64,000 bases of DNA from Utricularia gibba (taxonomy: Eukaryota > Streptophyta > Magnoliopsida > Lamiales > Lentibulariaceae), in contig NEEC01000020.1 of the NCBI GenBank assembly GCA_002189035.1, positions 930,001 to 994,000 on the forward strand, written 5' to 3'. This document shows, in pieces, positions 10,954 to 64,000 of this stretch (position 1 is its first letter; each line of letters begins with the position of its first letter). The notes beneath the pieces were generated by a model, which was given only the letters and a program-made list of their open reading frames with translations, was not told the DNA's origin and searched no databases. The position numbers and the translations under genes were made by a program.

Positions 10954-11843
10954 TCCCATTAACAAGAATTTATTCATACTTAAATCCAATTAACTTACAT
11001 AATTGCAAATATTTTACCTACTAGTTAAATGTCAAATAAAAAATTAATGTTACTATATCATCATTACCCAAACTCACCTACATCAAAATATTTTTACAGT
11101 GATTTACTAAAGCAAACACATTTGAAATTTAGAAACCCAATGGGACACACAAGAATGTAATATCAAGGGCTTAAACGATATTTCACATTAATTATAGATA
11201 AAATAGATATAAAACATAATTAAATAAAATTATTTTTCTAGTTTTATATGATATTTTTTATTGATAGAATAAAATGTAAATTTATCTTTCTAATTTTGTA
11301 CTATAATTTTTTGGTACGATACATATGGATTATTGTAATTTGTAGAAAAGTGGAAAAAGGTAATTAAATGAGGGCATTAGTATCAATTTATTGCAGAAGT
11401 AAATGTGGATGCTGCTGCAGCGGGGCTGTAAATTTGTCCCAAAAGAATCAATCCAATAGCATGCTAAAAAGTTACTTTTTTTATTTTTACATTTTCACTG
11501 ACCACCCCCTTCCAAACAAAGTCAAGGGGTATCTGTTTGGCTATTTCCAGCCGTCGGATTCATCTCACGGATCCCGCGTGGAAAAGACGGTTTCACCCAC
11601 CTTTTCCATCATTGTACCTGCAGGGCAGATCTGTCATCTACGCCATTTGCAGGAGAATGAACCAGCATATCTCTGAAAACATCCCTTGTACCTTCGCATC
11701 CCCCCCTCGTTTCCATTTCCATTTCTTTCTATCCTTTCGAAACATACTCGTAGACTCCCAGTGAGTGTGCCCATTCACCTCCCCCTCTGCGTGTAGTCTT
11801 CAAGATTGATTCTTGTGAAACTCCTGCTGTGTTTGTTTCTTCA
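10954..11843. promoter_or_regulatory. Upstream region and 5' leader of the LRR gene
   Basis: AT-rich DNA up to about 11350, then a more balanced segment with CT-rich stretches (about 11690-11830) directly before the ATG, as is common in plant 5' leaders. I cannot place the TATA box or the transcription start with confidence. Confidence 0.35.
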
Positions 11844-13196
11844 ATGGCGTCTGTTCGTGTTTCTTTCCTGCTTTTGTTCCTGTGGGTTTCAGCTACCTGT
11901 GTTGTTTCTCAGCGCCTTCCGGCGGCGGAGCAAGAAGGAGTTTACAGGGTGTTGGAGGCGGTCAACGCCGCCAATGACTGGCGGACTCTGTTTCCAGACG
12001 ATCTCTGCGTCTCTGCCCCGCACGGTGTCGTTTGCGACGTTTTCGAAGCAGGGGAAGCCCATGTGACAGAGCTCAGCTTCGGTTACGTTTCTGATTTCTC
12101 GCCCAACCCAGCATGCGATGCTAACGCTACCTTCGATAGTTCGCTACTGAAGGCGTTCACGTATCTGAGGAAGTTGTTCTTCTATGAATGTTTCACTGTG
12201 AGAGAAGTCCCATTTCCAGATTTCTCTACGGGATTCGCTACTGAGTTACAAGAACTGGTTTTTATGCGGAACCCAAGACTAGCTGGGTCCATTGAAAGGA
12301 AAATCAATAACCTGCACAACTTGAGAAAGTTGGTTTTGAGTGGAAACGGCGTTTCTTGGGGTGGGTTTCATGGTTTGGTGAATCTGGAGCAGCTTACTTT
12401 ATCAAGAAACAAGTTTGAAGGTGAGCTGGAGATGAACATTTTTCACAACATGAAGAAACTCAAAGTTCTTGACTTAAGTGACAATGGTTTCCACGGAAGG
12501 GTTCCAGATTCAGTTGGAAGTTTAAGTGAATTACTGAAGCTTGATCTCAGCTTCAACAGCTTCTCAGGACGAATCCCAGAGTTCCTAAAGAACCTAAAGA
12601 GCTTAGAGTTTCTAGATTTGAGTCATAACCGCTTTGGAGAATTTGGTTTGTCTGTGTTCTTGTCTGAAATGCCTTCTCTAAAGGAAGTTTATTTAAGCAA
12701 CAATCATCTGGGAGGCAAGATTCCTGAGATATGGGAGAATCTTGGAGGAATCAAAGGACTTGGGTTGTCTTCAATGGGTCTTGTTGGCAGTATTCCAAAA
12801 TCTATGGGTTCAAATTTGAGAAACTTATCCTACTTGGGTCTTCAAAACAACAGTCTTGAAGGTGTAATACCTGAGGAGTTTGAAGCTCTGGAGAAGCTGA
12901 ATGAACTCAACTTGGGGAACAACCGGCTAACTGGGAAGCTTCCATTTTCTGCAACATTCCTATCGAGGCTGGGGATGAAACTCAACGTGGAGGGCAATTT
13001 GGACGTTTGCGTGGGTGAAAGCTTGAATTTTGTCAGAGTCAAAGCCATTGGAGGGCTCAAAGCCTGCAAACAAACGCAACTTCCCCATAACGCCCTTCTG
13101 CAATCATCATCCAGTCCTTCTCATGCATCATTCGTTGCTTCAGGGTTTTCATTTTCTTTCTTATTTTGCCTAGGAATGATGTCTTTGTTCTTTTGA
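11844..13196 (+). CDS. LRR protein, PII-2-like / receptor-like protein without kinase
   Basis: Intronless 450-residue protein. Translation is taken from the ATG at 11844; the upstream codons in the same frame lack an ATG. Residues 1-23 are a signal peptide (SFLLLFLWVSATCVVSQ). A cysteine-containing N-terminal cap follows. About ten leucine-rich repeats of the plant extracellular type span roughly residues 90-380, with the L-x-x-L-x-L-S-x-N-x-F-x-G-x-[IV]-P pattern, e.g. VLDLSDNGFHGRVPDSVG. The last 20 residues are hydrophobic after a Ser-rich stretch and could be a GPI-anchor signal or a membrane segment. There is no kinase domain. Architecture and LRR spacing fit the PIRIFORMOSPORA INDICA-INSENSITIVE 2 / TMM-like receptor-like proteins, which act at the cell surface. 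The ligand is unknown, and I am sure of the class rather than the exact orthologue. Confidence 0.85.
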   Translation: MASVRVSFLLLFLWVSATCVVSQRLPAAEQEGVYRVLEAVNAANDWRTLFPDDLCVSAPHGVVCDVFEAGEAHVTELSFGYVSDFSPNPACDANATFDSSLLKAFTYLRKLFFYECFTVREVPFPDFSTGFATELQELVFMRNPRLAGSIERKINNLHNLRKLVLSGNGVSWGGFHGLVNLEQLTLSRNKFEGELEMNIFHNMKKLKVLDLSDNGFHGRVPDSVGSLSELLKLDLSFNSFSGRIPEFLKNLKSLEFLDLSHNRFGEFGLSVFLSEMPSLKEVYLSNNHLGGKIPEIWENLGGIKGLGLSSMGLVGSIPKSMGSNLRNLSYLGLQNNSLEGVIPEEFEALEKLNELNLGNNRLTGKLPFSATFLSRLGMKLNVEGNLDVCVGESLNFVRVKAIGGLKACKQTQLPHNALLQSSSSPSHASFVASGFSFSFLFCLGMMSLFF

Positions 13197-27980: not shown

Positions 27981-30900
27981 TAGGAAAGTTTGCAGCCTGA
28001 TTATTGATGGAGGTAGTTGCACTAATGTTGCCAACAATATCTTGGTGGAGAAATTGCGATTACCAACCGTGAGATATTCTAAGCCTTACAATTTATAGTG
28101 GTTTAATGAAGGAAGTGGGGTAAAGGTTACCAAACAAGCGCTCGTGGCGTTTTCTGTAGTAAGATATGAAGATGAAGTCCTATATGATGTTGTTCCTATG
28201 CATGCCAGTCACATTTTTGTTGGGAGGCCTTAGGAATATGATAAAAAGGCATTCCATGATGGCTTCAAGAACAAGTATTCCTTTGGCCATAATGGACGCT
28301 CCATCACACTTGCTCCATTATCTCCAAAGGAGGTACATGAAATCAAGTCAGAATCCTTGGTGATGCTAGAGCTTTGCATAGTGTTAATGGAAAGCACAAG
28401 GAGGTCGTACCTAAGGGAGAAGAGATGAGTGGAGAAGATCGAAAAGAGAGTGGAGTGAAAATGAATGAAAAAAAGATTCAAAAAAGTGGAGAGAAAAGAA
28501 AAGATGGGAAGGAATTGAGTGGAAAAAAGGGTGACAATGAGTGCAAAACAGAAAGTGGAAACATGAGAGTGTTAGAAATTGAGATAAATAATGAGAGTTT
28601 CTTAGCAAGCCCAAGTGAGATTAGACACTCACTTCATGCTAGGCAATCATTACTTCCACTTATATACGAGGATGAAATTCCTACTTTTCCTAACAACGCT
28701 CCACCTATTCCATCTTGTATTGTGTCTCTCTTACAGGTATATGAAGATGTATTTCCAGAAGAACTTCAAGGCTTACCTCCCCTCAGAGGGATTGAGCACC
28801 AAATTGACCTTGTGCCTGGAACACAACTCTCAAACCGACTAGCATACCAAGTCAATCAAGAGGAGACGAAGGAAATACAAAAGCAAGTTGAAGAATTGAT
28901 GTCTAAAGGATTTGTGTGTGAGAGCATGAGCCCTTGCTCTGTGTCGGTGTTATTGGTTCCTAAGTTTGATGGAACTTGACGGATGTGCACTGATTGTCGC
29001 GCCGTCAACAACATCACAATCAAGTATAGACATCCTATCCCTAAACTTGAAGATATGCTTGATGAATTGCATGGTGCTTGTGTTTTTAGTAAGATTCATT
29101 TGAGAAGTGAATATCATCAGATTAGAATGAAGTAAGGTGATGAGTGGAAAACCGCTTTTAAAACTAAGTTTGGTTTGTATGAATGAGTTGTTATGTCTTT
29201 TGGTTTTACTAATGCTCCTAACACCTTTATGAGATTGATGAATCACGTTCTTAGGCCTTTTATAGGTAGATTCGTAGTTGTTTATTTTGATAATATTCTG
29301 ATCTATAGCAAGAGTCTTGAGGAACATGTAGGGCATTTGAAGTATGTGTTAGATACTCTTAGAAAAGAGAAGTTGTTTGCTAATATCAAGAAGTGTGTCT
29401 TTTGTACGAATAGTGTCTCTTTTCTTGGATATATTGTAAATGATGCAGGAGTAGGTGTGGATGAAGAGAAAGTGAGAGCAATCAAAGAATGGTCAACACT
29501 TACATCAGCTGGTGAAGTTAGGAGTTTCCATAGCTTAGCAAGTTTCTATAGACGATTTATTAAGGATTTCAGGTCTATAGCAGCACCCCTCACTCAATTG
29601 ATCAAGAAAAATCATCTATTTCATTGGGGAGACAAGCAAGAACATGCCTTCAAACAACTCAAGGATAAGCTTTGCTCAACATCTCTCCTAGTGTTTCCAA
29701 ATTTTTCTGACACTTTTGAAATTGAATGTGACGCATCGGGTTTAGGCATTAGTGCTGTATTGATGCAAAATGGACGTCCACTTGCTTATTTTAGTGAGAA
29801 GCTTCATGGTGCCAACCTCAACTATCCAACGTATGACAAAGAGTTGTATGCATTGGTTAAAGTTTTGGAGACAGGGCAGCACTACTTGTGACCTAAGGAG
29901 TACACACTAATCATAGTCCCTCAAACATTTGAAGTGTCAAGGAAAGTTGAATAGAAGACATGCTAAGTAGGTGGAATTCATTGATACATTCCCATATGTG
30001 ATCAAATACTAAAAAGGTAAGGAGAATGTGGTAGCTGATGCTTTATCTAGAAGGTATACTCTTTTAGCTAATTTTGATGCAAGAATTCTAGGATTTGCTT
30101 CTATTATTGACTTATATGCTCATGATCACGATTTTGGAGACGTTTATAAGACATGCAAACTTGCTCCATCTGGAATATTCTTTAGGAAATATGGTTTTTT
30201 TTATAGGAAAGATAGATTGTGCATTCCTTGTTGTTCCATACATGATTTGATTGTTAAGGAAGCTCATGGGGGTGGATTAATGGGATATTTTGGTGTTAAA
30301 AAGACTTGATATTCTCACCCAACATTTATTTTAGCCATATATAAGAAGGGATGTTGAAAGAATTTATGATAGATGTATTTTTTGTTGGAAGGCTAAATCA
30401 ACCACTGCCCCTAATGGTTTGTATACTCTACTCCCTACTTCTTCCCAACCATGAGTGGACATTTTTATGGGCTTTGTTTTAGGCTTACCTCGTACCCAAA
30501 GGGATAGAGATTCAATTTTTGTTGTTGTGGACAGGTTTTTAAAGATAGCACACTTTATTCCTTGTCACAAAACTGATGGTGCATTTCATGTGGCTGATCT
30601 CTTCTTTTGGGAAGTCATTAGACTTCATGGTATGCCCCTCACTGTTGTCTCTGATCGAGATGCAAGATTTCTCAGTCACTTTTTGAGAGTTATTTGGAGT
30701 AAACTTGGCAGTAAGCTGTTGTACTTAACAACATATCATCCTCAAACAGATGGACAAACTGAGGTGACAAATTGCACACTTTCTACCTTAATTAGGATTA
30801 TGATTAAATCAAATCTTAAGACATGGGAGGAATGTTTGCCACTTTTTGAGTTCGCTTACAATAGAACCATGCATCTCACTACTAAATTATCTCCATTTGA

Positions 30901-36044: not shown

Positions 36045-39000
36045 TCAGGCAGCACTCCCAGACATGCTCCCACAGGGCGTCTCATACACATCCCCAAACG
36101 GAGGATCGAAGTCTTCAGCTTCCAAGTCTTCCATGTAAAACGTTCTGGACAGGCCCCGTGAGCCCCTAAGATCGACAACATGGGAGCCTTCCTCTGAGCT
36201 CTGCTCCGATAGATCATCCAAACCATTCCAATGATGAGCTGCGTTCTTGCTATAGAATTCAGGAGGTTCGATGAAGCTCGCAAGCCGGTGGGATGCTGCG
36301 CCAGCGACGACGTTGGGTGGTTCTTGAAAGCTTGCTTGCTGATCATCCACTTCAGCCTGCGCACGAGCCCACCAGCGGTTCCTTGCAGCCATGGTGACAG
36401 CTTCATCGTGATGATGGAGGAGACTTTCCTGGAAAAGAGGGGCGGATGAAGAAGCTTGCAGGTTGCTGTTTATGCGGTCTGCCACAAGGTTGTCGTCCCA
36501 CATGTCCATGCGGCTCATGTCCCCTGGAATCCATGGATCTGCGGGGAGGTTCTCCTCATCAGCACCATCATGAAATCTCGGCGCAGCTGCTCCATCCATC
36601 TCTTGGTTATGGCAAGTGTAGAACCAGTCAAGAATGTAAGGGAAGTTCCTTTGCTGTCCATCTATCAGCCACAGCAGTTCCATTTGAGAGAAATCCCAAG
36701 TGTCCCTGCAACGTAAGTCTTGACCAAGAAAGCCATGCCGATTCGCTACTCCACCATGATATGGCATTGAGGGGAATGCTTTTCCGGTCATCATTCCATG
36801 GCCACGCAGTTTCTCGTCTCTAAAAGTTTTTAGAGTTGCCAGGAACCGCTTTCCATCTGGGTTAGGCTCCCACGAAGGATAGGCCAAATGGAAACTGCAC
36901 ACACAGTGGGGATAAAATGAAGAATGCCCAAAAAGAACGTTGTCTCATGAATACTGCACCTTAGAAAGGACTTCTCCAGTTTCCCTTGGGAACTCCTCCG
37001 GTCACGAGGAAGAGCAAAAGGTGAACCATATCTTTTGTTTCCATGGTTTCTAAAATCAAAGAGACTGAAACTGCAATGAAAAGCAGGATATGGGTATCAG
37101 AAAGAATTGGAATTGTAAGAATCAGTAAAAAAATTGAAGGCCTTGTGCATACCTACAAATGTCACCAACACCTTCAACGTTCACTGTAAAGTCAACAATG
37201 AACTGCAAAATTATGTCCACCCTCTGCAGCATAAAAAAGATGTGTAACACAGTTTCCAAGAGGGATATATAAACTGGATACGCTCAAAAATAAACCTTTG
37301 GAACAACAAAGATGAGCAGGTAAGGAGTGACAAATATTGAGGCCATCTCTTCCAACAGCATCATTCCAGTATACTGAACACTAGTAGTTTCCTTGTTAGT
37401 TAATTTCAAGTGACTAAAAATGTATAATATATATATATATACACACACACATCTAAGGTTTCAATAAGGGGAAAACAGTCTCCAACCTCATATCAAGTAA
37501 TGTGGAGTTGAAACTGAGATATACAAATCCATGTGTACAACTTGATTGGAAACTGAAAATCTTCCTGCGTACCTGGAAAAGAGTTTCAAACTCCTCCCTT
37601 ACGGTGTCGGTGTTCTCTCTTCTACGCCATCTTTTGGGCATAAAATGTGTATGTTGGACTACTTGTGACATCATTCCTTGAGGATCAAGAATCAGGAGTT
37701 CATCAGCCACTGCTGCCCGACTTATAGCTGTTATGGTACCAAAAACAGCTGCATACCAGAACAAGTTCCGCCCAAAAATCTGTCAGGTCAACCAGAACGC
37801 AAAAGGAAAGTGGGAAATGTCAGAACTACAAAGATCATATGCTTTTCAAACAAAAAAAGTAACAGAGTATTACATGGCCTTCCAGAAGAGATTCCTCAAG
37901 GAATGCAATGATAATAAGCACAGCAGCAAAGCCACCCGAGATAAATGAAATGAACTTTGCTACAATAGTCAAGATGGGCGAAGGAAACTGCTTTAGATAA
38001 TCAGAAGCATGCACAACACTGTTATTCATGCGGTGCTTGAATAGATGGTCAACCTGGGAAGATATTTCTCATGTTGGATCATAAGGAAGAATGAAAGTAT
38101 ATGAAAATTTGACATAGTCATAAAATGAATAGAGAAGGTATAGTAATTAGTCAGACTTTCACGCGAAGCACAATGTTACCCACCAACACACTCAGTCATC
38201 CAACTCAGGAAAATTGAACAACTTGTGCAAAAGAGAAATCTGCCTTGTGAAACAGGGTGGTAAATTCATGTAGATACCTCATTGAATTCCCTGAACATCC
38301 ATTTAGAAAGATTCGACCACCTACGGGAGGATGCCGTACTTGGATGATTATAGAATTGTTCAGCGTGCCTTAAAAAGAGGTACACGAGCATGAAAATAAC
38401 AAGAAAGGGTGACAGAAAAAAGAGAGCGATGCCAACTATCCTAAGTCTTATCCTTAATGCTCCTGGGTCAGAGACAAAGTCCCTTCGAATGAGAAAGTTC
38501 CTGTGAATGGATAGAAGAAGACACAAGTAGATCAACCAACATGCAGAAACAAAATGGAGAAACCGATGCATTGTTATGAAATTAAATGTTGCATTCATTA
38601 GAACATACCTGTCAAACATACTCTGTAGTATGCACCAATTCAATATCCATTCAAGGGTCTTTGGAAGTATTAGTCGTTCCTTAACACCATTTGGACCTCC
38701 ACTGTAGGTTATACCAGCAATAGGGAGCCATTTTGAAACAGGGAATGCAAGTGCTCCTTTGTGGAGCATGCCAATCAAGTAATTCTCCTTTCGCATCAGC
38801 CTCATCACCACATCCTGAAGAGAAAGGTCCTTGACGACACATAGCTGCTGCCTATGTTGTACTTGGACAACCTTTTCAAGGACCAATGACCATGGCAATG
38901 TCTGTAATTCACTGTCTGTTACACAGAGACTGCACAGTTGATGCCTATCAGCAACAATTATAGGAAGCCAAATGCAAAGAAATCTTGATAAAAGTTCATA

Positions 39001-39605
39001 CACAAATTTTGGGCAGCATTTCCATCATAGACATACCTCTTGTTATAGAACTGACGGATCTTAAGAGTTTCCTTCAACTGCGCAAAGAATCGAAAAAAGC
39101 AGAAGACCCAGTATATGGAAAATATCCCCAAATACCCAACAATTATAGCCTTCCCAACAGTAAAAGGAGCCATTGGATGCTGGCGTAAAGCCTCTTTAGA
39201 CAAATCACATGGTTTAATTCCAGATTCTACAGCATCCATCCCACATTTAGCATTTCTAAGCCCATTCCAGTCCACAAAGAGTAAGAAAAATCCAGAAAAG
39301 CATACAGTAAAGGCCAAGCTCAGAAGCTCAATTATCCACTTAATGATGATACACCAAAGGCCTCTGTCACAATAATAAAAATAAATTTTCTCAAAGAAAA
39401 GATCCAAATCGTCAATAGGTTCTGCATACAAAGTCTCCCCATCAAGAAGCCCGGAGGGGCTTTCACTCGGTGGGCTAGGTGGCTTATGGTAATCAGACAA
39501 TTCGATTTCATGGTGATAATCATCAAGAAGACCAGCACTTAAAGATGATTCAGTTTTAGGTTTCCATTGATTGAGAGCTTGAAAAAACTTTTCCCCACTG
39601 AACAT
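36045..39605 (-). CDS. ATG9: Autophagy-related protein 9
   Basis: Nine minus-strand exons: 39605-39037, 38944-38609, 38500-38278, 38053-37874, 37779-37573, 37373-37296, 37223-37153, 37070-36960 and 36894-36045, giving 874 residues, close to known plant ATG9. The N-terminal cytosolic part is followed by membrane segments near 85-111 and 151-174, then the conserved core: DVVMRLMRKENYLIGML, LEWILNWCILQSMFD, LRHAEQFYNHPSTASSRRWS, SGGFAAVLIIIAFLEES, FGTITAISRAAV and VVQHTHFMPKRWR. The final long exon is the variable C-terminal cytosolic domain, acidic with Ser/Glu clusters. ATG9 is the lipid scramblase of autophagosome formation and cycles in small vesicles. I start at the ATG at 39605; the GTG codon upstream is not a start. 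No break is seen. Confidence 0.96.
37425..37450. repeat. AT/AC dinucleotide microsatellite in an ATG9 intron
   Basis: An AT run passes directly into an AC run within the intron between exons 5 and 6 of ATG9. It is a likely length-variable site. Confidence 0.8.
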
Positions 39606-40710
39606 CACTCATAAGCTAACAGCAGGTGAACAGAACCAGTCCATCCGAAAGGTAGGTGAATCACAACAGAATTCTGCATCAAAAAAGAATAAAATGGAGG
39701 AAACTAACTCATTTTCTAAAACACCAAACAACGTGCACCACACGTATTGGCACATTATGATAGACAATCGAGCACAGCATTCAAAGCTAAAGTCACCTAT
39801 CCCAATAAGCAGCTATGTGGGTTGCAGGACTGCGATAATCAACAAAGACTTACTTCCACTAGTCGTATTGAACCTAAAACCCTAACATCGGATCACAGAA
39901 CGGAGATTGATATGCTATGAAAAACATGAAACTGCCAAGGAAATATCTCGAGAAAAAGAGCAAGCTTCTCAATCAATAGCAAGAAAATGCTACGCAAAAA
40001 CATTTGTTTGATCGACTTTATGACCTTCTCTCATGGACAAACGATCAAAACGAATAAAACAAATTGATTATGACGAGTAGAATAAAAACAAGTTGACTTC
40101 AAGAATCAATCTTCTTATGAGCAGCAAACTAAGCCAATTCTACATAACCAAAATTCAGTGGATCACAATCTTTTTTCAAATTCACGAACTTAGTTTTGCC
40201 TTCCATTAACATAGCCTTCATGCGATCACATTCAACAACACCGACGCAAACGCACAAAAGAGCTAGCGATCGATCACAAAAAATACCCATAAAAACATAA
40301 ACTAAAGAACAAGCCTTTACCTCGAAATCGCGGAAAAATTCTGACCCAGGAACCTCAATATTACAGGCAGCAGTAAAACAAACACCTGAAACAAGTTTTG
40401 GACCAAATCGCATGAACAAATAAAAGAATCACAATTTTCGGCTACTCGCGAGAATGTAATCTTGCGTTCTTTATCCCTAGAAACGTTGAACTTCGAAACA
40501 ATAACCGAGTGAAGACGAAAGGACTCGGATTGCGTTGCGTGGAAAGCACAGGATTCTCTCTTTTTTCAGCTGTACAAAATACCTTTAGTATGCGCTAGAC
40601 TTTTCATATCCGTTTTATACAAAATGTAAATACACTGTTATTGATCACTAGCACTTTCTTCCTCCATATTCCTTCAAATATTAACATTTTATTTATTTCA
40701 AAAATTATTG
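39606..40710. promoter_or_regulatory. 5' leader and promoter region of ATG9
   Basis: GC-balanced sequence for about 950 bp upstream of the ATG9 start codon, more gene-like than the AT-rich DNA beyond 40600. It probably holds untranslated exons and an intron; I could not fix their borders. A 96-codon minus-strand ORF at 40129-40419 is unsupported. Confidence 0.4.
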
Positions 40711-53790: not shown

Positions 53791-53803
53791 TATAAAAGCG
53801 CAC
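53791..53803 (+). promoter_or_regulatory. TATA box of the first secreted-peptide gene
   Basis: TATAAAAGCGCAC lies 61 bp before the ATG. The identical 13-mer lies before the second peptide gene. Confidence 0.75.
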
Positions 53804-53851
53804 ATCATCCCCACCTTTCCCCCATTCAAATCTCTCAATTCTTCCAATACA

Positions 53852-54169
53852 ATGGCGTTCCAGAGAGTTCTCTTTTGCGTCCTTTTCCTTCTAGCAGCAT
53901 GCGAAGCTTCTAGAGTTCTCAAACAGGAGCAGCAAGGTTTATCCTCGTCGCCCACCGGAGCCCTCCTTCTGTTGCCATCTCTGCAAGCAAGGCCGAGCAG
54001 GCCGGGCGGCCCTCCGTCGCCCAGCGGATGCACGTGGATCCCGGGGCGCGGTGGCCGGCCGTGTGCGAACACGCTCGGGCAGAGGAACTTCGCGGCGGTC
54101 GCTCCCCAGGCTCCTCCGCCGTCCGGCAAGGTCACGGTGGTGCAGTTCGGGAAGGCTAGCGAAAGCTGA
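53852..54169 (+). CDS. Small secreted peptide precursor with C-x10-C core (copy 1)
   Basis: The ATG at 53852 is used because it follows a good TATA box (53791) and begins a clean signal peptide (MAFQRVLFCVLFLLAACEAS); the in-frame ATG further upstream lies before the TATA box. The 105-residue precursor then has a variable Ser/Gln linker, LLLLPSLQARPSRPGGP, and the core SGCTWIPGRGGRPC with Cys60 and Cys71. The tail is Pro/Ala-rich. It is intronless and GC-rich compared with its surroundings. Outside the signal peptide only two Cys are present, so a single disulphide is possible. I recall similar short plant proteins with a CT-x-IPG-x-G-G core but know no function. A role as an apoplastic signal is inferred. 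Confidence 0.8.
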   Translation: MAFQRVLFCVLFLLAACEASRVLKQEQQGLSSSPTGALLLLPSLQARPSRPGGPPSPSGCTWIPGRGGRPCANTLGQRNFAAVAPQAPPPSGKVTVVQFGKASES

Positions 54170-54784
54170 TGTGAGCAAACGACTCGGCTGATGAATAACT
54201 TAACTCATTCTTTTCAACTCATTCCTGTGTGATGCGCCGGGTGTTGAGTTGTACGTGAAAGTGTAAACCTTCTGATTAGGTCAAGTCTAATATTCTTTTA
54301 GATATTCAAAAAATTATATATTGATTATGTTAAAAAATCAGTATCTTATCAATGTTTTAAAATTTACTCGATCATGAAACAAAATAATAGTTTTCATTTT
54401 TAGAATAACGTTTCAAAAATAGCTAAATTATCATACACAAGTTATTTATATGCCAAAAATAATCAAACAAACCCTTCGTTTTTGTAAGAAGTTGTAGACC
54501 CTCGAGTTTTTCTTTATAAAAAACACTTCTTAAACTTGATTTTCTAAGTCATCAATACAATATTTAACATGATAGAATGGAATATAGTAAACTATCATTT
54601 ATTTAAATTAAATCTTTTACATAAAAAAATTGATATTCGATTAATATACTATACATTCTTTTATTCCATATAAAGAGTCATGCCTTATTTACAATATGGC
54701 TTATGTTCCCAAAAAAAGCAACGAAAATAAATTATTCTAATTAGATAGTATTTCTCCCAAAAAGACGGACCTTTTCATCTTTTG
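54170..54784. other. 3' flank of peptide gene 1
   Basis: Short GC-balanced 3' region, then AT-rich DNA. Nothing else seen. Confidence 0.4.
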
Positions 54785-55066
54785 TCACTTAGTATTTGGT
54801 TGATGAGATTGGGTGGGAGATAATAAATTATAGGATGTTGACTTTATAAGTTTAAATAAATCTAGGATTAAATGAGTTTTTTTATTAATTTTATGTATAT
54901 CAATTTATTTAAAAATGTATTTCTATTTACTTTATTTAATCACTTAATCTCAGCTCAAACTTCACAAGTAAAGACTATTTGAAAAACTAATTTCTCTATA
55001 TCATCTTTATTTAAATTCATAGAAATTAAACCCTTTTTATTCTATTTACATCAACCAAACACAAGT
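54785..55066. mobile_element. Possible Tourist-like MITE
   Basis: The left end CACTTAGTATTTGGTTGATG and the right end, reverse-complemented, AACTTGTGTTTGGTTGATG share TTTGGTTGATG with similar neighbours. Length is about 280 bp, AT-rich, no ORF. I could not confirm a three-base target duplication, so the assignment is tentative. Confidence 0.45.
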
Positions 55067-55189
55067 TTAATATAAATTAGTATCATTTGGCCACACTCAC
55101 CGACATTCGCCCAACACATTACTCTTAGTTGTATATAACTAAAGTAAGTTCCACACTAGCAAATTGTAAACCCAACACAAGAATTCGAA

Positions 55190-55885
55190 TGAGTTGTATT
55201 TCATGCATTAAACTCAAAACCCCACTTTTTGACGCAAGATTTGTGCTTGGAGCTTGGAAGAACTTTAGTTAGGAAATCTGCAGTGGTCTTCAGTTTTGAT
55301 TTTCTGTCGAATCCAATGGGCATGAATATCAACATGTTTCATCAAAGAGTGTAAAAATGTATTCTTGTTATGTGATATTGTTAAAATATATAATCTCAGA
55401 TCGAAAAATTGAAGTGGTATAATCAAGTATATTAGAAATTGTAAATCATAAGTTATCGATTGGGTTTAATTTTTTCTATTATAATCTATGTTTTTTGTGT
55501 ATTTGACCTTCATGTGTGCTCACTCGACCCATCGGATCTTGAATTTCAACATATATAGCTCTAATGATATCACTAAAAATGATTGTCTTCAAATCAGCTC
55601 CTTCCAGTTCGTCCATTAGATGATCAATTCAATCCATATTGCATGTTTTACGCTTTCAGAGAAAGCAACATATTCTACCTTTGTGGATGAGAGAACTACT
55701 CCCTTTTGAAGCCTAAAGTACTACATTATTGCACCAAATCTAAGGATTGAAATTACATAAGTAGTTGATTTCTTAGTGTCTGGGTGACCAATGAGATTTG
55801 CATCTACATACATTCTTGGTTGCAAGTCACTGTTTTCAAATTGTAAGATCAATGATTTAGAACCTTGCAGATTAAATTTATACCT
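55190..55885 (-). pseudogene. Ty1/copia RNase H relic
   Basis: The minus strand reads as the C-terminal RNase H of copia pol. Near 55800 is MYVDANLIGHPDTKKSTT (family: D-A-D-W-A-G ... R-K-S-T-S-G), then LQKGVVLSSTKVEYVAF (family: S-T-T-E-A-E-Y), and near 55320 TKHIDIHAHWIRQK (family: T-K-H-I-D-I). Several stops and an AT-rich stretch (about 55350-55530) interrupt it. No reverse transcriptase is seen upstream. Confidence 0.75.
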
Positions 55886-57613
55886 GCACAGTTTTCTTTC
55901 TTGTACAATTGTAACTCATGTTGTGGACAAGTCCTTCATTTTATGGAATTTATTTGTCCCATATCGGTTTGTTACTTACATTTTTTAAGCATCCATTTAA
56001 TGAAGGTGCTTCACATGTTAGGCATTAGTCTCAGGCACATGATACCTCTATTCACCTTTAACTATCAACACTTATTAGTACATTAACAAGTACATTTGTA
56101 AGAATACTTTACTAAAATGGTCCTTTCATAATGGAAAATGCTCAAGAGAAGCAACAATAGTTGATGGGATTGAGATTGACTTATATTATGGGCTAATTAA
56201 TATTAATCATTGTGTGACATGGGCTAATAATCATTGTAAAATGCCAAACTTAGCATCACCCATGAAATGTCGAAATTTTTTGAATTTTTTAGTTTATGGT
56301 TTTGGTGTTCTTAGGAGAAGGAAAAAATGTAGAAATTTAATTACCTAAAAACTTGAAAACGCATTGAGCATCAGGGGTTTTTTGAGTGCTCATGTGTTCG
56401 AGATTTTTGCTATTCAATGCTTATTTAGTGTTTGATAAATAGTGTTTCAATAGGCTTCTTGAAAACTCAATGAGCATAGGGTCCACATAGATGGTCATGT
56501 TGAGCTCTACAATAGTGCTTCTAGCTAGGGGCTTCATGTCCATCATATGAGCAATCACTCTATTTGTTGCTATTTGGGCATTGGGGCATAAATTTGTACA
56601 TGGGTGCTTACTATTAAGAGTTAGGAGCTTAGTGTTGCATCTCTTAGAAAGTTACTATTGAGTCTGAGATAATGCAACCACATGGCTAACGAGATTTTTG
56701 GGGCTCTCGACATATGCAATGCTCCTATTTTAACAGGTATTTAGCCCAAATCATGTCTCCTTGGATGGAAACCTACTTCTTAAGTCCTTGCTTTTCGACA
56801 TGGAAGATTCATCACCATAGATCGTACTTTAGTTTTCTCTACAAAGTGATATTTTCTCAAATACTTGGAGTGTAGTTTTTGTATGACTTATTTTACAACT
56901 TATGATTTAAAATAAAAGTAAATGTTTATAAAATATCTTTACTTGTTATAAAACTTATCTTATACTTATATTTTTATTTATTCTTAATTTATTTCAATTT
57001 TAACTACTTTATCTATTTATTACATAAGTTGATAAAATGTGAATTATTTAATAAATAAATTGTTTAATTTCAAATAAATCACTTCTATTTATTTTACATT
57101 TACTTATACAATAACTTTTACTTATGAATTAAATAGAAGTTGTTGCTTAAATTGCATAAACTACACCTTTCATGTTCGAATCTTTTTCATGGAAACATCT
57201 TCCATGATGGTTCTAGTCAAAGTCTTGTGTTCAATGGTTTGAATATTATTCTCGTTTTTCTCATTTTTTGTACAAAAGTAATTGTGAATTTAGTTAAAAA
57301 TTAATTATTCATGTAAAAAAAATCAAATATAATTTTCCATCCTAAAAATCACTCTTCCACCAATCATTAGTGCAGTGCACACTAAGTGATGCATTATTTG
57401 CTTGAGGTTTTTTTAGGAATGATCTTTTTCGCAGTCCCTTTTTCCCTCTCTTCAGCGTCTTTCACATTGGGCGTAGCAGTGCTCAGTTCTCCTCATGTGA
57501 ATAGAAGGAGTTCTATCGCTCAAATCAATCGAAGAACCCTACTTCGCATGAGTTCAAACATTGTTCTCTAGCTCCTCATAACTATTTCTCCTATGGTGCT
57601 ACCAATACTTAAG
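55886..57613. other. Intergenic, no gene recognised
   Basis: Mixed composition. Repeated phrases about 56380-56480 (TGAGCAT, GTTTT) and a 61-codon ORF at 57386-57571 do not match a family I know. Confidence 0.35.
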
Positions 57614-57812
57614 TAGTGTTCTGAAAAATTTTTAAAATCTATTTCTATTTTTCAAAAGTAAAAATAATTTTTTTATAATACTTTTAATTATAAAAATAAT
57701 TCTATCAAAAACATTTTTAAAATTATAACTATAAAAGTTATTTTTGAAAAAGTAATAAATTCGTTTTTATTTTTATTTTTCAAAAATAATTTTGAATTTT
57801 CCAAAATATTGT
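57614..57812. mobile_element. MITE-like inverted-repeat element, copy B
   Basis: Begins TAGTGTTCTGAAAAATTTTT and continues with ATCTATTTCTATTTTTCAAAAG; ends with TTTTCCAAAATATTG. It is the same family as the element at 51221-51453 but more diverged. No ORF. Confidence 0.6.
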
Positions 57813-59001
57813 TTTAACTGTTCTCAAGTACCTTCACTTAACTGCTTTCAAGCATTTATCTTGTTTGAGTGGGTTTTCCATTGGTGGATTTGTGTCCCTT
57901 GGGTAATATACGTGGGTACTAGTTTTTATTTCTCCATAGAGTAGTCATGCAGCGATGTATCAATATATGAGCATTTTTATATGCGAATTTAGCTATCCAG
58001 CAACATTCATATTATAATTTAATTAACATTATTGCCATGCATTTCACCAATCTAATAAAAACCCAGTACTTGTTACATAAGCACTCACTTGAATGATCAG
58101 CAGTTGCCATCATAGGGTAAGCTTGGATGTCATTGTCTACAGATTAGGGTCCTGTGTTTGAGAACATGAGGCATTCAAATTCTCCACCAAAACAGTAACA
58201 ATATGTCGCTTGGGTTGAAACTTGCTGCACCTTCAAAACACTTAGTTCATTTCTTTTTTACTCACAAATTTTAAAATTGATAAGTGACTAAATTAGCGAT
58301 TAAATTGAATTTCCTAGTTCTTCTATTTAATTTGATATATCTGTTTATCAGGATCAAGTCAATAAGAAAGCAAATATCCTTCAATAATTTTCAAAAGAGT
58401 ATGATTATAATCAAAGTAAAAATTAATGAAAAAATCAAATATCCTTGGATTACAATCATTTGACACCATACTCAATCAAAATCTAATTTTTAATCCAAAA
58501 ACAAATGAAATTAGCCATTCAAACTGGATCCTACCCGTTTAACTTTTTCAAGCGTCGGGTCAGTCAGATGTGACGTGGACCCTCGCTACCAAGTTGAGTT
58601 GAAGCACGGCGCAAATTTGGGGCGGGTGGGTAGTTATGAAGACACATCCATACATTTATAGTCTGTTAATGACTAATCAGGTGGTCGCCCCCGGCTGGCT
58701 GTATTATCATGACCTGAACTCGGTTTTCCTATGCGTCCACCGGTTCAATCAACCATAGAGCAAGCAACCTCCCAAACTTCCATTATTCAAAAAGTTTGAT
58801 ACTAGTATATTAGTATGTTTAACTATAGATATAATTAATTATATATAATGCTTGATATTAGAGAATATAAATTTGAGTATATGAATAATATAAATATAAT
58901 TAATATTCTATTCATTTGTATATATTATCTATATTCAAAAATATGTATATAAACTATATATCTATACAAAGCTGACATACATATATTAGTTAGTTAAATA
59001 A

Positions 59002-59036
<35 letters not shown>

Positions 59037-61427
59037 TAGGTATAAATCATCAATACCCAAGTATTAAACATGCGCTAAGGATGGTTACTATACGGATCTA
59101 AAATTAAATATATTTATAATGTTAATTCTATAATATATATTTATCCAAATATACGTAATTCAAAAATATTCATAATTAAACTATATTATCAAACATCATA
59201 TCAAATGTAATCTTAAATGCTAGTAGATAATCCATTTATTCATATGCGTCACCAATTATAAAATTCATTCTAAAATTTTACTGTTATTATTATTATTATT
59301 ATGTTAATATAAACAACTTAAAGCCTATTGAACTGTTTGAGGCACTTTGAATCTTCTTTTTATAGCAAACACAAAAATATATTTTTACGACATAAAATTT
59401 GATTTACTTTTATCAAATATATTTAAGCTTCTATATTTATTCTGCATGCATATACACAATCATTTTTGTTATATTGAATGTGATTTTTAGCAGTTTTATG
59501 AATATTGATAAGTAGTACCTATGTTTTTATATTTTTATAACTATTTTGAATTATTTCATATTTCTTTTATGTATATGTTTCTATATTTTTAAATATTTTA
59601 TATTAATATGATCTTTTTGAAATAAAATTAACTTTTATAATTTTTAGAATAATTTTGATTTAAATTAAAAGAAAGTCATGGCTTAAGATGAATGAGTCTA
59701 TTTAAGATCGATATTGAACTAGAAGAAAGTTCAAAGATGAAAATTTGATCAAAAATTTTATGATTTAGATAAAAATTTTAAAAATAATTTTGAAAAATTA
59801 AGATGGATGATAGATAAAAAAAACTTAAATATAGATCCAAAAAGAAAAAAATTAAGTCTGAAGTCTGATCACCATGCTTTTGTAAAGTCTGAAGTCTTCG
59901 AATCATTCAGAAGTAATATAGTCAAGTCTTGATTTCCAAATTTTCATTTGTTTTCAATTTTTAGTAATTTTTGTGTCCTAAAGTAAACCATGTGCGCGTA
60001 AACATTTATGGTTAAGGATTCTCATTGAAACTATGATTATGCAAGTCCTTACACATGTTGATGATTTACTATGTTTTTTATATTTAATTTCATTTTACAA
60101 AAATGTTTTTCTTGTCAATATGCTTTTAATTATCACCAAATCCTAAGACCATATGAAAAAAAAAATCAATTGTATATTGTTGTCAAAACACATTTGATCT
60201 AATATATCTACTAGTATGTAAATTCTTTGGGTTAGAATCAAATGTTAGAAAAATATAAGTTATCGTAAAAGACGAAATGATTCTAGTGAAGTAATTAATT
60301 CTATATTTTTACTAAATGAGAAATAATGGTATTATAATTAACAAGTATCACTTATTTAGAATAATATTCTTAAAATTTTTGTGAACGAGTAAATGTTTGA
60401 GAATCACATACACATATGAACAAGCATTTTGAGCATCAAAAAGTCATCGTATGACGGCCTTCCATGTCCGGAGGGTGTGGGTTGGTCAGAATGGTTTGTT
60501 GTCACTTCTACCTTTGAAGTCAATATTTTTATATAATTTCAAAATTATATTTTTATTTTTTATCATTTATTTTAGGAAAAATTCAAAATATCAATTCTTA
60601 GTGAAAACAATTTTTATTTTTTGTTTTAATTTTTTATGCGCAATTACAAAATTACTATCAAAATATTCATATACATTCATATCTGAAAAAAATGATTCAA
60701 TGGGCATTAGTCATAAAACCTAGTAGTCACATACTAAGTAACTAACTTTTTGAAATTATATTGCAATAACACCTAAATTTGATAAATCAAAAACACTATG
60801 TTATATAACAAGTGTTTTATTTGATAAATCAACTAAATTCGTGGACGTAAAATTCTGATCCCGGGATTCGTAAATTTTATTTACAAATAAATAACCTAAT
60901 AAAAAATTGAACATATTGTAAACTTTATTATACAAATAAATATAAAGTGACTTCTTTATCATTCATTATAAGAAAAATGAATAAGCGAATAAAAATTGAA
61001 CATATTGTACACAATTACATGTAATCGAGTTAAATAATTGATTTATATAAAAAAATTAACAAAAAACGAATTATAGATTAATTAATCTCATAAATCAAAA
61101 CTCCAAAGCTATATATTTTAACTATTCTACAAAAAGGAAGAAAAAAAAATCACTTAACGGCTCAAAGGTTTTGAAAGTGACCCGACCCATAAAGTATTGG
61201 GTTGAAATTTCAACTGGCAGAGATTATTCAACTGTTTAATTGTAAAACTTACCTCACTGGTTCGGTTTCGCTGATGCAAAGCTACTAAAATCAAAAACCA
61301 ACCACAGAAAATTCATTCAACTCTTTGAAAAATCCGTCACCAGCATGCTTCCGCATCCCGGAGTCTCTTTGAATAATACCAGTCAAATTCGGACCTCCAT
61401 AGCGTGCACATTGCATTCCTGGAGCAG
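57813..61427. other. AT-rich intergenic region
   Basis: A GC-balanced island at about 58530-58760 contains no recognisable coding sequence. The rest is AT-rich with short simple repeats. Possible old element ends near 58790 and 59200 (TTTGATA ... TATCAAA) could not be paired with confidence. Confidence 0.4.
59004..59032. repeat. AT dinucleotide microsatellite
   Basis: An uninterrupted AT run within AT-rich intergenic DNA. Confidence 0.95.
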
Positions 61428-61440
61428 TATAAAAGCGCAC
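61428..61440 (+). promoter_or_regulatory. TATA box of the second secreted-peptide gene
   Basis: TATAAAAGCGCAC, identical to the 13-mer at 53791. It lies 80 bp before the ATG. Confidence 0.75.
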
Positions 61441-61507
61441 GCACCGGAGATCCCAGTTCCATGCACAAATCTATCTCTCTTTCATTGCTTGCTTGACCCA
61501 GAAGAGG

Positions 61508-61771
61508 ATGATGAGGAGGAGGAGTTCCATTGCTGCTGTTTCCATTTTCGTTCTGCTGGTTGCTCTCAGTGCTGATACGAATGAAGCCATACGTCTCCTG
61601 CCGGAGGAATTCGCGAAACAAGCGAATCTGCTTCTACCGTCGTTGCAGAGTAAGCCGCCGTCACCGAACCCTTGCACCTACATTCCGGGGAGTGGTTCCG
61701 GTGTATGCATGAAAGTGGCAGGTGTAGACTCTCCTTCACCTGACCTGAAACTGAAAGAGGGTGGCGTGTGA
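61508..61771 (+). CDS. Small secreted peptide precursor with C-x10-C core (copy 2)
   Basis: An 87-residue precursor, intronless, from the first ATG after the TATA box. A basic start (MMRRRSS) leads into a hydrophobic signal sequence (IAAVSIFVLLVALSA). The mature part has LLLPSLQSKPPSPNP and the core CTYIPGSGSGVC with Cys56 and Cys67, the same C-x10-C spacing as the copy at 53852. The two share LLLPSLQ, the Pro-rich spacer and CT-x-IPG-x-G. The tail (SPSPDLKLKEGGV) is short and differs. A paralogue of copy 1 by sequence and promoter. Function unknown; secretion is predicted from the signal peptide only. Confidence 0.78.
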   Translation: MMRRRSSIAAVSIFVLLVALSADTNEAIRLLPEEFAKQANLLLPSLQSKPPSPNPCTYIPGSGSGVCMKVAGVDSPSPDLKLKEGGV

Positions 61772-62508: not shown

Positions 62509-64000
62509 ATGAGCAACAAAGCCAAAAAATTCATACCATTACAATCACCACAGTTCGATGGAAAAAACTATCTTATTTGGGTAGCAAAAATGAAGTGTTA
62601 CATACAAGCCTTGGGATTATGGGTCATAGTGACCAAAGACCCACCAACATATAAGGAAGGGAAAACCAAAAAACTCACAAAAGAGAAAACGATGACAAAC
62701 TCACAAGCTCTGGTTGCCGTACATGGCTCCCTCACCAATGAAATCTTTTTGATGATATTCAACTGCGAAACAACAAGAGAAGCATGGAAAATATTTGAGA
62801 TAGATTTCTCTAGAACTGAAAACTCACAAAAGCTGAAAAATTGAACCTTTGGAGGGAATTTAACTTAGTAAAAATCTCAAACTCAGACCCTATTAAGTCA
62901 TTTGCAGACAAGCTGAACAAACCTATGAGCAAGATCAAACAAATGAGAGGCACGGTGGAAGATGAGAGGGTTATCAACAAAATTTATACAAGCATGCCTT
63001 CAAAATTCAGCCTTGTTGTGAGTGCACTCATTGCAACAAGGAGTTTGATTAATCTGATGCTATCTAAATTGTTGAACACTATGAGGGGTGAAGAGCAAAG
63101 ACTCAATATCTTGGATGAACAAGAGAAACCTCAAGAAAAATACTACAAGCAGCTTATACAGCCTATAGGTCAAATCAATGTCACGTAGTAAAAAAGGAGA
63201 AAAGAGGGCCTCACCCACCATGCTAGTTTTGTAAAGGAAAAAAAATCATCAAAGCAGAGATTGTTTTTGGAATCCTTCGAACAAGTGCATACACTGCTCT
63301 GCTATGGGACACATAGAAAGAGTCTGCCCTGAAAAACAAAAGGCTAAAGAACTGTTAGTTGTAGCCTGAATATCTAAACTTCCCCAAAATATGAGCGATA
63401 TGGTTCTGGCCATTATTGAGACATATGCAAGTTTATCTACCACAAAAAGATTAGTTACAAAAGACAAGTAATGATATTTGGATAGCGGCTGTAGCAAACC
63501 ACCTTGGCATATGATATTAACTACTTCAAAATCCTAAAACCCCTTTCAAAAAAGAAAATCCTCCAAGCAGCAAGACAAGAACAATTGATACCTGATGGAA
63601 TTGAAGACATCTCAATGTCTGGGAAAATTATTAAAGATGTGTACTATGGTCAGTTACAAGATCAAGACATTTACTATATACATGAAAATACTTCAATCAC
63701 TGCTCGGAACTCATCTGAAAATGCATTATTCAAGCAAAAAAACAGCAAAGGGTATATCCCATCTCATTTCTCACTAAAACTATAAATGGCATCTGTCTGA
63801 GCAGCCTAACAACATAAACCCTATGGCATCAACGCCTTAGACATATATGTCAAACAAAACTTCTCCTTATGAAGAGAAATCATTTAGTCGAAGGCATATC
63901 TAACCTAAAGAACCAAGATAAAATATGTCAAATCTATCAACAAGGAAAAATAATTAGAATTCTTTTTGACACAAAAACCTAAAAAAGCACCAAAAGATTG
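62509..64000 (+). pseudogene. Ty1/copia gag and protease, frameshifted, runs off the window
   Basis: Gag starts at 62509 (MSNKAKKFIPLQSPQFDGKN). YLIWVAKMKCYIQA and TREAWKIFE are the usual gag landmarks. A one-frame change near 62843 moves gag to another frame (SDPIKSFADKLNKPMSKIKQ and DERVINKIYTSMPSKF). A CCHC zinc knuckle is intact at 63286-63326 (CIHCSAMGHIERVC). The protease site LDSGCS lies at about 63478-63495, with Pro-Pro-Trp-His where the family has a His after one or two residues. Stops follow. The rest of pol would lie beyond the right edge. Confidence 0.85.

Follow-up and report, generated by a model that had tools for sequence, protein, structure and literature searches.

The CTNIP/SCREW phytocytokines are a published family of plant signalling peptides (Rhodes et al. 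2022, PMC9191895; Liu et al. 2022, as cited there). The CTNIP family was named for its conserved residues, and its members were filtered for two cysteines located 9-11 residues apart (Rhodes et al. 2022, PMC9191895). In Arabidopsis the peptide binds HSL3 and recruits BAK1, both cysteines being needed, and the outputs comprise Ca2+, ROS, MAPK signalling and root growth effects, together with the reopening of stomata after immune or ABA closure (PMC9191895; reviews PMC12907539 and PMC13056886). The cysteines of CTNIP4 are C58 and C68, the second being residue 68 of 70 (PMC9191895). Of the CTNIPs that Rhodes et al. identified, more than 40% had no annotation, and no clear CTNIP was found in grasses (PMC9191895).

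The window, that is, the whole stretch of 64,000 nucleotides of Utricularia gibba DNA analysed here (C317), contains two intronless genes, A and B, whose exact positions, ORFs, cores and cysteine spacing were reproduced as given in the original prediction (Table 1). Both precursors are shorter than 150 aa and have the same layout: after a hydrophobic leader come LLLPSLQ, a spacer rich in Pro and a CT[WY]IPGxG core with C-x10-C spacing. The cores are GCTWIPGRGGRPC in A and PCTYIPGSGSGVC in B. According to hydropathy, a signal peptide is predicted in both, since the N-terminus is strongly hydrophobic and xEA-type sites come next. Between them, searches with A and with B detected three further loci elsewhere in the genome, which gives five members in total.

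Table 1. Features of genes A and B in the window and of their paralogues elsewhere in the genome.
Feature	Position	Strand	Remarks
Gene A, A-type CTNIP/SCREW-like precursor, 105 aa	53852..54169	+	Intronless ORF, paralogues
TATA box and flank TATAAAAGCGCAC of gene A	53791..53803	+	61 bp before ATG
Predicted signal peptide of A, MAFQRVLFCVLFLLAACEA	53852..53908	+	Kyte-Doolittle peak 3.15 at residue 6; cleavage site estimated
LLLPSLQ of A	53966..53986	+	Corresponds to ..FQALQ.. of CTNIP4 in Arabidopsis
Core C60-TWIPGRGGRP-C71 of A, C-x10-C	54029..54064	+	
Gene B, B-type CTNIP/SCREW-like precursor, 87 aa	61508..61771	+	Intronless ORF, paralogue on C451
TATA box and flank TATAAAAGCGCAC of gene B	61428..61440	+	80 bp before ATG
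Region of B predicted as signal peptide, up to about ..DTNEA	61508..61588	+	Kyte-Doolittle peak 3.05 at residue 8; cleavage site estimated
LLLPSLQ of B	61628..61648	+	
Core C56-TYIPGSGSGV-C67 of B, C-x10-C	61673..61708	+	
A-type member on C1, 93 aa	C1:397143-397433		
A-type member on C451	C451:2720287, about 2720254-2720541		Cysteine-less, open frame kept
B-type member on C451	C451:2722605		

An HMM profile built with the five members of this genome was searched against all PDB chains. Only two sequences appeared at E<=10, one of them being 9w1s_C, a 43-aa peptide with E=1.5, a weak value that is not significant PDB-wide. The alignment spans LQ...PnGCTxIPxG..C, and the peptide, which reads ...LQR..GPNGCTNIPRGTPRC and includes FVFQALQRGPVSGSGPNGCTNIPRGTPRC, is found in entry 9w1s together with AtHSL3 (AT5G25930) and BAK1; entry 9wum also holds an HSL3/BAK1 peptide complex. 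The x9 spacing of 9w1s_C agrees with C58 and C68 of CTNIP4 (PMC9191895). When shuffled sequences were scored, 6 of 19,567 (20,000 made) did as well as 9w1s_C (p about 3e-4), 61 of 19,900 as well as the related Arabidopsis peptide 9wum_B (p about 3e-3) and 234 of 19,982 as well as wheat TaNNS-C from entry 9uob (p about 1e-2), the three tests not being independent since these peptides are mutually related. The five-member profile was needed for this result: gene B as a single phmmer query gave only chance matches in PDB. Neither the A nor the B protein matched any Pfam family. The 29-aa segment of CTNIP4, used directly as a genome query, found nothing, and this query is so short that the empty result is uninformative.

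As in Arabidopsis CTNIP1-5, which act with HSL3/NUT and BAK1, the window genes present a short leader-bearing precursor, an LQ followed by a spacer, a CTxIP core and two cysteines within the 9-11 spacing, in a multigene family with a receptor orthologue in the same genome. CTWIP in A and CTYIP in B keep four of the five CTNIP letters. In contrast to the Arabidopsis CTNIPs, the N of the core is replaced by W or Y, G stands for R after IP, the spacer is Pro-rich, and the loop is one residue longer than the x9 of CTNIP4. Moreover, whereas CTNIP4 ends two residues past its second cysteine, 34 residues follow it in A and 20 in B, although this near-C-terminal position describes Arabidopsis CTNIP4 and is not a family-defining criterion in PMC9191895. 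These differences, the tails of 20-34 residues included, could reflect further C-terminal processing. Wheat TaNNS-C shares an NGCTN-x-P core and has a weak but above-shuffle score with the profile, but its sequence departs after the core and it is partnered with a grass LRR kinase. Entry 9uob combines TaNNS-C (NGCTNNP core), SERK1 and an LRR receptor kinase, and this peptide may be the grass counterpart of CTNIP.

The candidate receptor was found in the same genome. A kinase search with a generic query, which served solely to collect candidates, gave LRR receptor genes, among them a C255 exon that looked HSL3-like. Against PDB, the best match of this exon was AtHSL3 (537 bits), with HSL1 at 390 bits. 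In the reverse direction, the AtHSL3 ectodomain, read from the PDB alignment of the C255 exon, had its best genome match at C255:1411903-1413516 (531 bits, 51% identity), and the next one was of HAE/HSL1 type (374 bits). Because it is the reciprocal best hit of AtHSL3, the C255 gene was assigned by homology as the HSL3 orthologue of AT5G25930. HSL3-type receptors occupy more than one locus in this genome. A second HSL3-like gene at C255:1970000-1975000, about 560 kb away and in opposite orientation, is very similar to the one at C255:1409800-1414800, its coding sequence being split over frames; C3:2747172-2748754 holds, in two overlapping frames, one more HSL3-like ectodomain, with 50-55% identity to AtHSL3.

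Taking into account the gene structure, the paralogue family, the CTNIP motif match and the HSL3 orthologue in the same genome, it is highly probable that A and B encode precursors of CTNIP/SCREW-family phytocytokines, a link that depends on a core some 15 residues long and its context. A quite unlikely alternative is that these secreted two-cysteine peptides form a family of their own, which arrived at the CT-x-IP core by convergence and has a different receptor. The long C-terminal tails, the x10 loop, the W or Y in place of N, the Pro-rich spacer, the lack of a Pfam match and the weak full-database score are in line with it; it is opposed by the LQ-spacer-CTxIP-C order in common with CTNIPs, the shuffle test, a cysteine spacing inside the published range and the presence of HSL3, and no better CTNIP candidate was found in the genome. 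With A and B read as CTNIP/SCREW precursors, the finding most likely extends a known signalling module by further members and reveals no new one. The original prediction, which knew no function or receptor for these peptides and proposed an undescribed system, is superseded on both points: the core, the cysteine pair, its spacing and the short precursor correspond to CTNIP/SCREW peptides, for which both the receptor, HSL3/NUT, and the co-receptor, BAK1, have been identified, and a profile match to this described family was obtained, though its full-database score alone is weak. Another plant genome would now supply CTNIP/SCREW members together with their receptor.

Considering the leader, the precursor would be secreted, and a peptide of about 20-30 residues with the CT[WY]IPGxGxxxC core would be released from it or would be active within a longer product. 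The two cysteines are probably joined by a disulphide. By analogy with Arabidopsis, the peptide would bind the ectodomain of the receptor kinase HSL3/NUT and recruit BAK1/SERK, and the outputs in U. gibba would be the same as those described there. Apoplastic peptides with no signalling role, such as antimicrobial or cell-wall peptides, could also be small, Pro-rich, cysteine-containing and, as predicted here, secreted. This is very improbable for A and B, which carry only two cysteines and whose conservation is centred on the end of the leader, the LQ stretch and the CTNIP-like core.

The upstream 13-mer TATAAAAGCGCAC that the original prediction had pointed out in common was located before both ATGs. 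The 100 Mb genome contains 3 copies of it, about 3 being expected by an order-3 Markov estimate, and no such peptide gene lies near the third copy, on C2. Since the count matches the expectation and the C2 copy lacks a peptide gene, the 13-mer is a core-promoter TATA box with a flank common to the two window genes, and a common regulatory code was ruled out. The A-type gene on C1 has TATAAAAACACAC at -75, and TATAAAA is absent within 160 bp of the ATG in both C451 members. All five members have 1-2 W-box hexamers in the 500 bp upstream, with about 0.5 expected at uniform base frequencies, which is at most suggestive of elicitor or stress induction.

An A-type and a B-type gene stand in tandem both in the window and on C451. 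Because order and orientation are equal at the two places, the pair is old and was probably copied as a unit. No B-type gene was found on C1. There, near the A-type gene, are copies of the LRR (window 11754-13196) and ATG9 (window 38266-39608) genes, located at C1:421059-422302 and C1:404496-405110, respectively, and these matches carry internal stops. Given these copies, the C1 region is a block syntenic to the window, in inverted orientation. The protein search for synteny linked the window to C1 and not to C451.

Amino acid identity is about 43-53% within the A type and within the B type, with the core kept, in agreement with the pattern of plant signalling peptides proposed originally, a fast-diverging secreted precursor with a conserved two-cysteine core. 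For the pairs C317A/C1A, C317A/C451A and C317B/C451B, dS was 1.3-2.2 and dN/dS 0.19-0.36; dN/dS was below 1 for every pair with an estimable dS, and most other pairs were near or at synonymous saturation. Since one paralogue recovers the other and three more loci, and dN/dS is below 1, these genes are real relatives and not chance ORFs.

The A-type member on C451 reads STWIPRR...PASS; both cysteines are gone, while the other members keep the CTxIPG core. This joint loss fits two cysteines acting as a pair, or a copy in decay. Taking into account this member and the stops in the C1 matches to the ATG9 and LRR neighbours, decay or lack of expression is a further alternative, but for the window genes it is highly improbable: in both the ORF is intact, a TATA box is present, and the core is kept despite synonymous sites near or at saturation. 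An unlikely reading within the CTNIP/SCREW identity would be that A and B form an ancient, C-terminally extended tandem pair split into two classes of HSL3-type ligands, the cysteine-less C451 member being no dead copy but a natural antagonist, or else a ligand that binds in an altered way. The tandem pair and the cysteine-less member would offer a natural test of co-evolution between ligand and HSL3 receptor.

As for the surroundings, a copia-type gag fragment (DUF4219, Retrotran_gag_2) is located just downstream of gene B (window 62509-63188), and a retrotransposon reverse transcriptase/RNase H fragment is found at window positions 29187-29891.
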